From positions 1,302,001 through 1,366,000 of the forward strand of contig NC_015388.1 in NCBI RefSeq assembly GCF_000195295.1: 64,000 bases of DNA, in the 5' to 3' direction. The notes beneath the pieces were generated by a model, which was not told the DNA's origin, ran no database searches, and saw only the letters and a program-made list of their open reading frames with translations. A program made the translations under genes and the position numbers. Shown piece by piece: positions 46,221 to 50,872 of the stretch. Within the stretch, counting starts at the first letter, position 1. Each line of letters begins with the position of its first letter. This DNA comes from Desulfobacca acetoxidans DSM 11109. GTDB taxonomy: Bacteria; Desulfobacterota; Desulfobaccia; Desulfobaccales; Desulfobaccaceae.

Positions 46221-46940
46221 TTAGTCGAAGGCCATATCCGTTTTCCAAACCGTCCAGATTTTACCCACCAGATCAATCCCGGGTTTGAGCGTCATCTTGC
46301 CTTTCTTCCAACCGGAGGGAGTTGCCTCGGTTCCCTTTGAGTCTCTGACGCGTTGGAAGGCTTGTATCTGTCGGAGTGATTCCATAATATTGCGGCCGAC
46401 GGGGGGTGAAAGTACTTCAAAACCCTGAACTACACCCTCCGGATCAATAATAAACCGACCCCGGGTCTCTACCCCGGCTTCCTCATCAAATACCCCATAG
46501 GCCTTACCAACGTTGCCACCGGCATCAGAGAGCATAGGGAAAGGAATGCCCCCTTCCACCATTTTGCTCAGCTCATCGTCATTCCACATCTTTTGCACGA
46601 AAACACTGTCGATGCTCATCGATAAGATTTCGACGCCGAGTTTCTGAAATTCTGCATATTTTGCGGCAACTGCCGCAATTTCGGTTGCTCAGACAAACGT
46701 AAAATCACCGGGATAAAAACACAATACAACCCATTTGCCCAGGTATTCTGAGAGTCTTACTGAAGTAAATTGCCCTTGGTGGTATCCCGGCGCCACAAAA
46801 TCCGGAGCTTTTTTCCCGACTTTGATCATGGCTGCGACCTCCTTTTTAGGTGTTGTAGTTTGGGTGTCTGGCTCATCGATGCTTTCCCCGACCGGGCCGC
46901 CGGTTGGTCGGGCGCAGCCGAGTTTGATTTCCTCTCCCAT
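46221..46940 (-). CDS. selenocysteine-containing peroxiredoxin (AhpC/Prx)
   Basis: Two minus-strand open frames are separated only by an in-frame TGA (46689-46691) at the exact place of the peroxidatic residue: CFYPGDFTFV-TGA-ATEIAAVAAKYAEFQKLG. Read as selenocysteine, the gene makes 239 residues with Sec84. Typical Prx partners follow (MSIDSVFVQKMW, PFPMLSDAGG, AYGVFDEEAGVETRGRFIIDP). The usual resolving Cys site near the C-terminus reads EATPSGW, with no Cys after Sec84, so the partner thiol may be Cys9 in the N-terminal extension (KLGCARPTGGP) or another protein. AGGAGG precedes the ATG at 46940; AAGGAGGT also precedes an in-frame ATG at 46829, a possible second start. A SECIS-like hairpin follows the TGA. 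Confidence 0.9.
46661..46691 (-). promoter_or_regulatory. bacterial SECIS-like element at the Sec codon
   Basis: On the minus strand, TGA (46691-46689) is followed ten bases later by TTGCGGCAGTTGCCGCAA (46678-46661), a perfect 7-base stem with loop AGTT. The loop contains GU and starts about 18 bases after the TGA, within the spacing known for bacterial SECIS elements bound by SelB. The hairpin also codes for the protein. Confidence 0.8.
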
Positions 46941-47177
46941 GATTGCCTCCTGTATTGAACTGATTGAAATAAAATCGTTCTCAGGAATAATCTCTTTCGG
47001 TCCCGAGGCGGGGCGGGGAATTCCAATCCCTCCGAAGAAAGATGTTAGAGAACGAATTGCGAGCCGATGCCACGATTGCCGGTACCATTTTTTCTGCTTT
47101 TCTCCCAAAGTGATGAAAAGCATAAAAACTATGTGGCCATAAGTTTATAATAGTAATCTCTCAGGACTTGCGCAAGA

Positions 47178-48701
47178 TCAAGAGTATGTCCCTTGATCAG
47201 TGGCCTTGGCCCGATCCTCCTGGGTCATACCGGCCAAGCGCTCCAATTCGGACACGTCCAGCTTTAGACCCTCGGCTACTCGGCGACCGTAATCCGGGTT
47301 GGCCTTAAAAAAGATGGCCGCCTGACGGTATTGAATCCTTTTCTGAGCATTGCCCAGATGTGCTACGATATTGCCGACAAGGTGATCCCGGTCGGTATCG
47401 GTCATGACCTTGCGATACAGATTGCCGGCCTGTACGAAGTCGTCATTGGGGAATCTATAAGGATAACGCCCGGCCAGGCCTCCCACCTCGAAGGGTGGCT
47501 CCTCTGTGGCGGGGTCCGGTGCCGGTCCGCCGAAACTGTTAGGCCAGTAGTTGGGACCGCCGCCGCCGTTGTCATCCACCCGCATGAAACCGTCCCGCTG
47601 ATAGCTGCGCTCGGGTGCATTTTTCGGCGCATTCACCGGTATGAGATGATAGTTAGGACCCAGCCGGTGAATGTGGGTGTCGTGATAGGAAAGCAACCGG
47701 GCCTGCAACATCTTATCTGGAGAGGCGCCAATCCCCGGGACAAGATTGGCAGGAGAGAAGGCGGCCTGCTCAACTTCGGCAAAGTAGTTCACCGGATTGC
47801 GGTTGAGCACCAGTCTGCCGATTCTGATGGGCGGCGCCTCAGCGTGCGGCCAAACCTTGGTAAGATCGAATATGTCCCACTTAAAGTCATTGGCCTGCTC
47901 CGGAGTCAGAATCTGCATTTCCAGCGTCCAGGATGGATAGTCCCCGCGAGCAATAGCGCTATACAGGTCGCGGGTGGCATGGTTCGGATCTTCTCCGGAA
48001 AGCCGGATGGACTCCGCCAGGGTTAGATTTTTGATACCATGATCAGTCTTGAAATGGTACTGCACCCAAAAATGCTCGCCCTTAGCATTATACCATTTAT
48101 AGGTGTGGCTACTGTAACCGTTCATATGGCGATAGGTGGCCGGTGTGCCCCGATCCGAGAAGAGGATCGTGACCTGGTGAACCGACTCCGGGGTAAGAGA
48201 CAGAAAGTCCCAAAACATATCAGCGTCCGGCAGGTTCGTAGCCGGATGCCGTTTCTGGGTATGAATGAAATCAGGGAACTTGAGCGGATCCCGGATGAAA
48301 AAAACCGGGGTATTGTTGCCAGCCAGATCGTAATTGCCTTCTTCGGTATAGAATTTAACGGCAAAACCGCGGGGGTCACGGGCAGCATCGGCAGAGCCCC
48401 TCTCGCCTCCCACCGTGGAAAATCTTACGAACACTTCGGTGCGTTTGCCGACCTGATTGAGGAACTTAGCCTTAGTGTATTTCGTAACATCCGCCGTCAC
48501 CTCAAAATAACCGTGGGCGCCTGCCCCCTTGGCATGCACCACCCGTTCCGGAATCCGCTCCCGGTCAAAGTGCATGAGTTTTTCGAGGAGATGCACATCT
48601 TGCAACAATACCGGTCCGCGTCTGCCGGCAGTGAGACTGTTTTGATCATTCGACACTGGGATGCCAAAGGCAGTGGTTAACTTGTTTTTCTCTTGAGTCA
48701 T
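47178..48701 (-). CDS. katA: heme catalase (small-subunit, KatA type)
   Basis: This 507-residue catalase has the active-site His56 ([16 protein letters not shown]), the distal Asn at about 129 ([17 protein letters not shown]) and the proximal heme ligand Tyr in [18 protein letters not shown]. The length and the [16 protein letters not shown] start fit clade-3 catalases. It disproportionates hydrogen peroxide. AAGGAGGAT precedes the ATG. A PerR-type inverted repeat lies upstream, and the perR gene follows on the other side of it, which points to peroxide control. Confidence 0.97.
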
Positions 48702-48834: not shown

Positions 48835-49272
48835 TTACTCCTCGGCCTGGCAATCGGGGCAGATACCGAAGAAATCAAGACAATGCTCAGTTATCCGATA
48901 ACCGGTCTTTTGAGCGGCTTCCTCCGTTAATTCCTGTATACCACTCAGGTCGGGATCAATGATCTTTTTACATTTGAGGCAGATGACGTGGGGATGAGGG
49001 AATGGCCGGTTGCCATCAAAACGGTTGCCTGCCGATACGCGGACTTCCAAAACCTCTTTAACCTCCTTCAGGAGATTAATAGTCTTGTATACTGTAGCCA
49101 GGCTGGTAGTGGGGAAGACTGCCTTGACCTGTTCATAAATCCTTTCCACGCTGGGATGATCTAAGCTGGCTGCTAATATTTTAAGTACCGCCAGACTCTG
49201 GGGCGTAATCCGAAAATTGTACGCCTGGAGTTTGGCGATCATCTGGTTTAAGCGAACTCTGGGGTCGGTCAT
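48835..49272 (-). CDS. perR: Fur-family peroxide regulator, PerR-like
   Basis: This 145-residue protein has the Fur winged helix (ITPQSLAVLKILAAS, then SLATVYKTINLLKE) and a dimer domain with two CxxC pairs (CLKCKK and CPDC) for structural zinc. The RFDGNRPFPHPH segment has an Asp in the regulatory metal site where Fur proteins usually carry Glu, and two His, as in PerR. With Fe bound, PerR-like proteins are oxidised by peroxide and release their targets. The nearby katA and peroxiredoxin genes fit that role. Confidence 0.85.
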   Translation of the reverse strand: MTDPRVRLNQMIAKLQAYNFRITPQSLAVLKILAASLDHPSVERIYEQVKAVFPTTSLATVYKTINLLKEVKEVLEVRVSAGNRFDGNRPFPHPHVICLKCKKIIDPDLSGIQELTEEAAQKTGYRITEHCLDFFGICPDCQAEE

Positions 49273-49315: not shown

Positions 49316-49401
49316 ATATATAACTAGAGTTTAGAATCTACGATTGATTAAAAAAATGTATCAGCCACGAAAAAAAGCTTGACAGACCCGCGCAAACGCG
49401 T

Positions 49402-49445
49402 GGTCGCCTTTGGCGACCAATCGAGAAAAGAAAATTCTTTTCTCG
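49402..49445 (+). promoter_or_regulatory. two hairpins blocking the transposase leader
   Basis: GGTCGCC (49402-49408) pairs with GGCGACC (49412-49418), and CGAGAAAAGAA pairs with TTCTTTTCTCG (49422-49445). The second stem ends at the base before GGGAGG, the transposase ribosome binding site. Such leader hairpins in IS elements often reduce translation of transcripts that enter from outside. Confidence 0.65.
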
Positions 49446-49457
49446 GGAGGTTGTTCA

Positions 49458-50759
49458 ATGGCTACAAAACTTCTTATCCCCTATCAAGTTCTTGCTCAGT
49501 GGCTCACTATCCTATGGCAGGCGGTGCCTATCAAGCTCCGTCCCACGTTACTCGAACTGCTCTTTGGCAACATCTTATCAGGATCTGGTCATATCACCGA
49601 TGCTATCCTCACTGTGTGCGCCAAAACGAGTTGGAGCAATTACTTCAAGGCCCTACAGAGCAATGGTTTTTCTTGGTTAAGCCTTTGCCGCCAATGGCTT
49701 GTCCTCGTGTTGCGTTACTTTCCTCGTCTCACCATTACCCTGGTCATAGACGATATGTTGACGCCCAGAACCTCGAAAAAAGCTCCTTCGGCAGCGATAT
49801 ATCACGATCATGCCCACAGACCCAACCGGCCGCCGTTCATCTTCGGGCAATTACGGGTGGCTTTAGCCATAGTGTTAACATATGCCGGCAGAACCGCAGC
49901 CTTCCCATGGTTATGGCGGCTCATACGAACTACGGGAAACACATCAAAGCTGAAAGCCGCCCAAGTTTTGATGGCTTTAGCTCGTCAATGGGTGCCAAGA
50001 GCCATCGCCATACGACTTCTACTCGACGCCTGGTATATGAAAAAAACTCTGGTGCTCCGTCTGATCCATCAGGCAGTGACGGTCATTGGTCAGGTTCGCC
50101 GAGACACCGTATGTTATCTCTTGCCCACCCAGCCATCCTCCCCTCGACGGGGAGCACCTCGCAAGTATGGAGAGAAATTGACCTTCGCCAAGGCCAAAAC
50201 CTTGCTGCCCTTACAACACGCGTCTATCAAGGCGTATGGCAAAACCCGACGCTTCGAATTCTATACTGCCCAGGCCAAAGTCCGATTCTTAAAAGGACAT
50301 ATTTGCCGAGTAGTCTGGTGCCGCTTTCTGCAGGATTCCGGAAAATGGACCAATTGGGCCCTGTTGCTGGCTACCGATCCCACCTTGACGGCAGCGAATG
50401 TGATCAAATTGTACAGCCGTCGTTGGTGGATAGAACCGATGTTCAACGAGATCAAGCACAGCTTTGGTCTGATCAATGCCTGGCAGCAGTCTCGCCAGAC
50501 ATTGGCCCGTTGGACAACGCTCATTTCCCTGAGTTACAGCTTGCCAAGGTTACTGGCTCTCTGGCTTGGCGACCAGAAAGGAGCGCAACTTTTCCCTATC
50601 CCTTGGCGTCGGCAGCAAGCCGTAACCGCAGGCTGGATCGTCAAAGCAGTCCAACAATATTTTCGACTTGTCAACATCAGGGCCTGCTGGGATCGAAAAT
50701 CGCAAAAATTCGTGCTGCCCAACGAGGATTTTATGGCTACCTGCAAAAAAGCAGCATAA
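49458..50759 (+). CDS. IS4-superfamily DDE transposase
   Basis: The ATG at 49458 follows GGGAGG at the right spacing and is preferred to an upstream start at 49410. The 433-residue protein has the DDE catalytic residues: Asp98 in LVIDDM, Asp190 in LLLDAWYMKK, and Glu326 in YSRRWWIEPMFNEIKHSFGL, the YREK-type motif of IS4-like enzymes (the IS701 or IS4 groups fit best). It seems intact, so the element may be active. Confidence 0.93.
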   Translation: MATKLLIPYQVLAQWLTILWQAVPIKLRPTLLELLFGNILSGSGHITDAILTVCAKTSWSNYFKALQSNGFSWLSLCRQWLVLVLRYFPRLTITLVIDDMLTPRTSKKAPSAAIYHDHAHRPNRPPFIFGQLRVALAIVLTYAGRTAAFPWLWRLIRTTGNTSKLKAAQVLMALARQWVPRAIAIRLLLDAWYMKKTLVLRLIHQAVTVIGQVRRDTVCYLLPTQPSSPRRGAPRKYGEKLTFAKAKTLLPLQHASIKAYGKTRRFEFYTAQAKVRFLKGHICRVVWCRFLQDSGKWTNWALLLATDPTLTAANVIKLYSRRWWIEPMFNEIKHSFGLINAWQQSRQTLARWTTLISLSYSLPRLLALWLGDQKGAQLFPIPWRRQQAVTAGWIVKAVQQYFRLVNIRACWDRKSQKFVLPNEDFMATCKKAA

Positions 50760-50872
50760 AGTTCGCATTTCTTAATGACATTTCGTCTGGTTGATACCGT
50801 TACCACATACGGTGACGCTGAAGTACGTTGAAAATTTGGCAACAAGAAAATGCGCAGATTCTAAACTCTAGT

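Follow-up and report, generated by a model that had tools for sequence, protein, structure and literature searches.

A selenocysteine peroxiredoxin gene of Desulfobacca acetoxidans with a candidate N-terminal resolving cysteine and a conserved internal start

Peroxiredoxins are a textbook example of how labour is divided between two residues, the peroxidatic and the resolving one. The first selenocysteine (Sec) peroxiredoxin, according to the passage that cites the work, was purified from Eubacterium acidaminophilum (Sohling et al., 2001, cited in PMC13188914). A 2006 paper lists Sec peroxiredoxins among deltaproteobacteria (PMC1794560), and the Sec peroxiredoxin genes dmul_C20060/70 are named in Desulfococcus multivorans (PMC5109826). 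As far as the passages on them tell, these deltaproteobacterial genes are of the same kind as the prxU gene described here and belong to related sulfate reducers and syntrophs; the passages list the gene and do not describe its resolver or its starts (PMC1794560, PMC5109826). An arm, an arm Cys and a dual start are likewise not mentioned in the PrxU passages of PMC13188914. The family is catalogued as NF040737 (PrxU, NCBIfam) and is called a thioredoxin-dependent peroxiredoxin; the D. acetoxidans gene is assigned to it by sequence. The PrxU of E. acidaminophilum reportedly comprises about 203 aa, which corresponds to the length of the short forms discussed below, and carries no N-terminal arm.

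The prxU gene lies on the minus strand of the window, the 64,000-nucleotide stretch of the D. acetoxidans DSM 11109 genome that was analysed. Its reading frame, which runs from 46940 to 46221 when TGA is read as Sec, contains a single TGA, at codon 84; the plus strand of 46221-46940 is not an open frame. The translated context of this codon is YPGDFTFV-U-ATE, in which TFVU forms the peroxidatic TxxU motif, and in alignments with AcePrx-1 and human Prx2, Sec84 falls on the peroxidatic Cys. An in-frame TGA at the peroxidatic Cys of an AhpC/Prx protein had been proposed by the initial annotation and is found at codon 84 (46691-46689); the stretch given there was right and the strand, which went unstated, is the minus strand. 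Cys9 and Cys74 are the only cysteines besides Sec84, and the C-terminal resolving Cys does read Thr (Thr207 in EATPSGW), as had been claimed. The features are listed below; long forms are homologs picked by the Cys motif of the N-terminal arm.

46221-46940, minus strand: prxU, Sec-containing AhpC/Prx1-type peroxiredoxin of 239 aa with Sec84 (translation with TGA read as U; NF040737; PF00578)
46946-46951, minus strand: AGGAGG, Shine-Dalgarno (SD) sequence of the first start, Met1 (ATG 46940-46938) (sequence)
46893-46916, minus strand: N-terminal arm motif C-A-R-P-T-G-G-P with Cys9 (46916-46914), the candidate resolving residue (homolog conservation)
46837-46844, minus strand: AAGGAGGT, internal SD sequence of the second start (excess over synonymous shuffling; Lys-Glu codon usage)
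46827-46829, minus strand: internal in-frame start codon ATG, Met38 (ATG in 181 of 182 long forms; short-form relatives begin at the equivalent Met)
46719-46721, minus strand: Cys74 in VLCFYP, near-invariant in long forms (180/181)
46689-46691, minus strand: UGA codon for Sec84, at the site of the peroxidatic Cys (translation; homolog alignment)
46661-46678, minus strand: bSECIS hairpin with a 7-bp stem and an AGUU loop (fold; synonymous third-position covariation)
46320-46322, minus strand: Thr207 in EATPSGW, at the site of the C-terminal resolving Cys (translation; alignment)
47178-48701, minus strand: catalase gene, upstream neighbour of prxU (PF00199, 654 bits)
48835-49272, minus strand: Fur/PerR-type regulator gene, upstream of prxU (PF01475)

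The product matches NF040737 with 405.7 bits (cut-off 270) over model positions 2-233 of 233, and PF00578 with 134 bits. Its score for PF10417, which was checked as the Prx6-type C-terminal domain, is 17.9 bits (cut-off 21.1). The AlphaFold monomer model (pLDDT 89) finds 5zte_E as its best PDB match (E 2.7e-23), and this predicted model adopts the AhpC/Prx1 fold with a target-normalised TM-score that reaches about 0.95. By family match and fold, PrxU appears to be a peroxiredoxin of the Prx1/AhpC type and not of the Prx6 type. Because the protein is a clear member of a catalogued family, a Sec peroxiredoxin at this locus is not new. Selenoprotein peroxiredoxins had been described as known in a few anaerobes; they are not rare, as a PrxU match over the cut-off occurs in 130 of the 395 genomes sampled from the phylum. 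Three other genes of the AhpC/TSA family, all free of TGA, are present in the genome (at 851464, 1076005 and 479443; L002, L003 and L004), so PrxU is not its sole peroxiredoxin-like protein.

Because the catalase and Fur/PerR-type regulator genes are located just upstream on the same strand, the setting of prxU fits peroxide defence. Of 109 related loci, 11 likewise have a Fur-like gene upstream in the same orientation. No conserved operon partner was found among these loci, in which the neighbours vary; the commoner flanking genes, named by eye, are flavin oxidoreductase-like, Fur-like and rubrerythrin-like. Two overlapping open reading frames of 471 and 449 aa, the latter resembling a transposase by eye, occupy the plus strand at 49379-50794, where they are flanked by the Fur-family gene and an MreB-like gene.

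Cys9 is kept in 80 of the 80 best homologs, in the context C-A-R-P-[TA]-G-G, and the C-terminal resolver position in the same 80 is Thr, Ala or Leu. In the wide set, where the arm consensus is C-x-R-P-T-G-G-P, the long forms were picked by this motif and the invariance of the Cys is partly a matter of definition; the count in the 80 best homologs is not. To place the resolver, 223 homologous genes were classified by motif (L136, L182 and L249 by eye). The 184 long forms comprise 174 without a C-terminal resolver, six with the classic Cys and four with a tail Cys. The 39 short forms comprise 18 with the classic Cys, six with a Cys shifted by two residues (PCGW; L152-L155, L157 and L158), 12 with a Cys in the far tail (KVCEIW type; L136-L138, L146-L148, L151, L161-L164 and L168) and three with none (L156, L165 and L166), of which L156 has another N-terminal Cys. 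Since the arm and the C-terminal Cys are thus nearly complementary across the homologs, Cys9 appears to stand in for the lost resolver, and this distribution suggests that it replaces the C-terminal resolving Cys. Strict mutual exclusion of the two was rejected, as six long forms have both. Cys9 had been named as one means of regenerating Sec84, and it is a good candidate.

A core-domain tree places the long forms together in a branch of 44 of the 77 rows (SH-aLRT 90), which also includes a few rows that are arm-less or odd. Inside or beside this clade lie L184 and its near relative L185; both are arm-less, begin at the internal ATG and carry the classic motif EACPAGW. A phylogenetic pair test of the arm against the C-terminal resolver yielded two supported pairs, too few for significance.

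The arm is evidently translated, because its residues are conserved in the long forms while the synonymous codons vary freely, with all of them in use, and because no stop codon occurs between Cys9 and the core in 176 of 176 long forms. The latter count also rejects a separate leader peptide in this region. Low folding energies upstream of Met38 had pointed to a conserved RNA hairpin that spans the Cys9 codon and its surroundings; this too was rejected, since the energies equal those of synonymous shuffles (mean z -0.05). The high GC content of the region is due to the peptide that it encodes.

The likeliest alternative is a 1-Sec enzyme, in which an external thiol, thioredoxin or sulfide, and neither Cys9 nor Cys74, reduces the selenenic acid. 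We regard this as unlikely but worth serious consideration, and give the same standing to its corollary that Cys9 has another role, such as binding a partner or a metal. Oxidised Prx6-type enzymes are reduced fast by hydrosulfide (PMC12697902), and a sulfate reducer makes sulfide. Two short Sec peroxiredoxins, L165 and L166 (from genomes G183 and G207), are intact though they contain no other cysteine and hence no resolver; G207 also carries a separate long-form copy, L197. However, PrxU appears not to be of the Prx6 type, and the nearly complementary distribution of N-terminal and C-terminal cysteines, L184 and L185 included, speaks against a 1-Sec mechanism. Under the reading in which Cys9 serves as resolver, L165 and L166 are a natural stand-alone version of a resolver-less short isoform, which the second start of prxU would provide.

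Met1 is preceded by AGGAGG and Met38 by AAGGAGGT, both strong SD sequences. A strict SD was defined as AGGAG or GGAGG, and its expected frequency was obtained by shuffling synonymous codons within each gene. An in-frame ATG is found at the Met38 position in 181 of 182 long forms, and a strict SD precedes it in 174 of 181, compared with 45.8 expected. The excess persists in the genes that came solely from the HMM search of sampled genomes (97/101 vs 32.2 expected) and in 32 representatives under 85% identity (30 vs 6.8 expected). The Lys-Glu codons before Met38 are AAG-GAG in 118 of 123 cases; at the other Lys-Glu pairs of these genes, the figure is 10 of 104. The spacing between SD and ATG is 9 nt in 96 of 110. 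Four of the SD exceptions have GGGGG, which can still pair with the anti-SD by means of a single G-U wobble, and the Cys-type long form L145 has lost the Lys-Glu pair and kept GGAGG. Along the gene, the energy of pairing with the anti-SD peaks at Met38, with a mean of -11.4 kcal/mol vs -6.1 in synonymous shuffles; the mean at Met1 of the long forms is a little weaker (-10.0 kcal/mol). Besides deltaproteobacteria, the signal occurs in loci labelled KSB1, Krumholzibacteriota, Chloroflexota, Cloacimonadota, Calditrichota, Latescibacterota, Delongbacteria and WOR-3, some of which labels may be wrong because most of these loci come from metagenome bins.

The two strong starts reported earlier are therefore real and conserved far beyond chance. 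Because the internal SD and ATG are kept beyond shuffling and the arm is translated, both starts are under selection, and for the second start these patterns, read from sequence, establish selection across the long forms. One gene most likely makes two isoforms: a long one with the resolving arm and, from Met38, a short one of 202 aa that would lack the arm and Cys9. That the resolving Cys is lost and that there are two starts had been presented as novelties of this gene; the former belongs to the whole long-form PrxU clade, as the 80 best homologs illustrate, and the latter is common to the same clade. Overall, the observation behind that account is confirmed and its interpretation is supported in part; the novelty claimed for this gene alone is not supported.

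It may be objected that PrxU is made from Met1 alone and that the internal SD is kept for another function, such as pausing or a standby site, so that no short isoform arises. A strong internal SD need not initiate, and the protein-level selection on the arm implies that Met1 is used. We nonetheless judge this rather improbable: pausing does not need an ATG and an SD kept jointly at a fixed spacing, selection in highly expressed genes acts against SD sequences within the coding part (PMC5100845), and the equivalent start is the only one of L184 and L185.

Cys74, which is ten residues N-terminal of Sec84, could instead resolve within the chain after local unfolding. The earlier account of the cysteines was right about Cys9 and missed this second near-invariant residue, which 180 of 181 long forms keep and which is not found in all short forms. 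Cys74 is placed in a predicted strand (residues 70-75), accompanies the classic resolver in several short forms, L170-L172 among them, and is absent from others, and we know of no characterised peroxiredoxin with a resolver at this position. A resolving role for Cys74 is thus very improbable, and the residue remains a weaker candidate than Cys9.

Decoding of UGA84 as Sec via the downstream hairpin is strongly supported, about as well as sequence allows. The 7-base stem with an AGTT loop that had been noted ten bases past the TGA is borne out by fold and covariation: the stem is a perfect 7 bp, the loop is AGUU, and the folding energy is -11.2 kcal/mol (z -2.2), which by itself is only modest evidence for a SECIS element. 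As in a bSECIS element, the hairpin is located just 3´ of the UGA and its small apical loop contains G (and U); an Rfam search returned no match for it. Covariation was assessed in 128 distinct homologous sequences against shuffling, with positions counted from the U of UGA as 0. Pair 14-29 is formed in 91% (52% by shuffling), pair 17-26 in 100% (65%) and pair 20-23 in 98% (74%); all three join third codon positions and co-vary synonymously (TA/CG/GC, GC/AT and AT/GC, respectively). The loop reads CAGUUG in 80 of these sequences and CGGUCG in 43, and we take cGGUCg to be the loop of the E. coli fdhF element. In the Cys-type relatives, at least two of the seven stem pairs are broken in 9 of 11 and one is broken in the other two. 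The search of the genome for selA, selB, selC and selD that had been suggested as a check found all four: selA (603 bits), selB (384 bits), tRNA-Sec (selC; 80.5 bits, gathering cut-off 47) and selD (367 bits). The selD gene (L014, 557612-558529) itself contains an in-frame TGA, so the selenophosphate synthetase is probably itself a selenoprotein. Sec insertion is well supported by these genes together with the synonymous covariation of the hairpin and the decay of its stem in Cys-type relatives.

The TGA occurs at the same codon in 80 of the 80 best homologs from named genomes, which, with the Sec machinery in the genome, excludes a chance TGA. A sequencing error, or a pseudogene ending at residue 83, has a negligible probability and is ruled out by the finished genome (3,282,536 bp), this shared TGA, the synonymous selection on the hairpin and the complete Sec machinery. 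Separately, for the hits with two TGAs (L165/L166 and L176), replacement of Cys9 by a second Sec was considered and rejected, since these TGAs lie upstream of the start or resemble a true stop.

The account that we consider probable as a whole combines a Sec84 peroxidase, a Cys9 arm as resolver, two starts and mixed rings. UGA84 would be read as Sec via the hairpin just downstream, and Sec84 would reduce peroxide and thereby become a selenenic acid. Cys9, on a flexible N-terminal arm, would resolve this selenenic acid in place of a C-terminal Cys. The two starts, each with its own SD, would give rise to a long form of 239 aa, which bears the arm, and a short form of 202 aa, which would be devoid of any known resolver. 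Both forms probably co-assemble in one ring, where the ratio of the starts would set the number of arms, and the short-form sites would be resolved by the arm of a neighbour, by small thiols or by sulfide. More tentatively, and with somewhat less confidence than doubt, PrxU may represent a multi-phylum family of selenoperoxidases in which the second start adds a resolver-less isoform to the arm-bearing one, so as to form tunable mixed rings. The corresponding proposal, that the N-terminal Cys arm has replaced the lost C-terminal resolving Cys and that one gene builds the rings, is held with the same reserve.

If this is true, a single gene would provide adjustable resolving capacity and a choice between an enzyme and a peroxide sensor or relay. 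The natural series with the candidate resolver at four places makes the division of labour between the peroxidatic and resolving residues testable, as does a gene apparently built for resolver-bearing and resolver-free forms. Automatic annotation, which assumes one start per gene and reads UGA as a stop, can hide two decoding layers in one short gene.

A literature search of incomplete coverage returned no discussion of the resolving Cys for a Sec peroxiredoxin and no internal start in a peroxiredoxin; within that coverage, the N-terminal Cys arm and the selected second start go beyond what was found described for PrxU. For the second start, the closest parallel is RpnL/RpnS, bacterial genes-within-genes with an internal in-frame start (PMC10327210). 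In both cases, one open frame with an internal start leads to a shorter C-terminal product, which for prxU is a predicted one. The short product of RpnL/RpnS is a small C-terminal antitoxin domain, whereas that of prxU would be a complete enzyme minus the arm. Typical 2-Cys peroxiredoxins, such as human Prx2 and Salmonella AhpC, share with PrxU the fold, the active-site motif and the position of the C-terminal motif, which reads EVCPAGW in these enzymes and EATPSGW in PrxU. PrxU differs from them in having Sec for the peroxidatic Cys and Thr for the C-terminal resolving Cys (E-x-C-P-x-x-W), and it adds an N-terminal Cys arm and an internal start.
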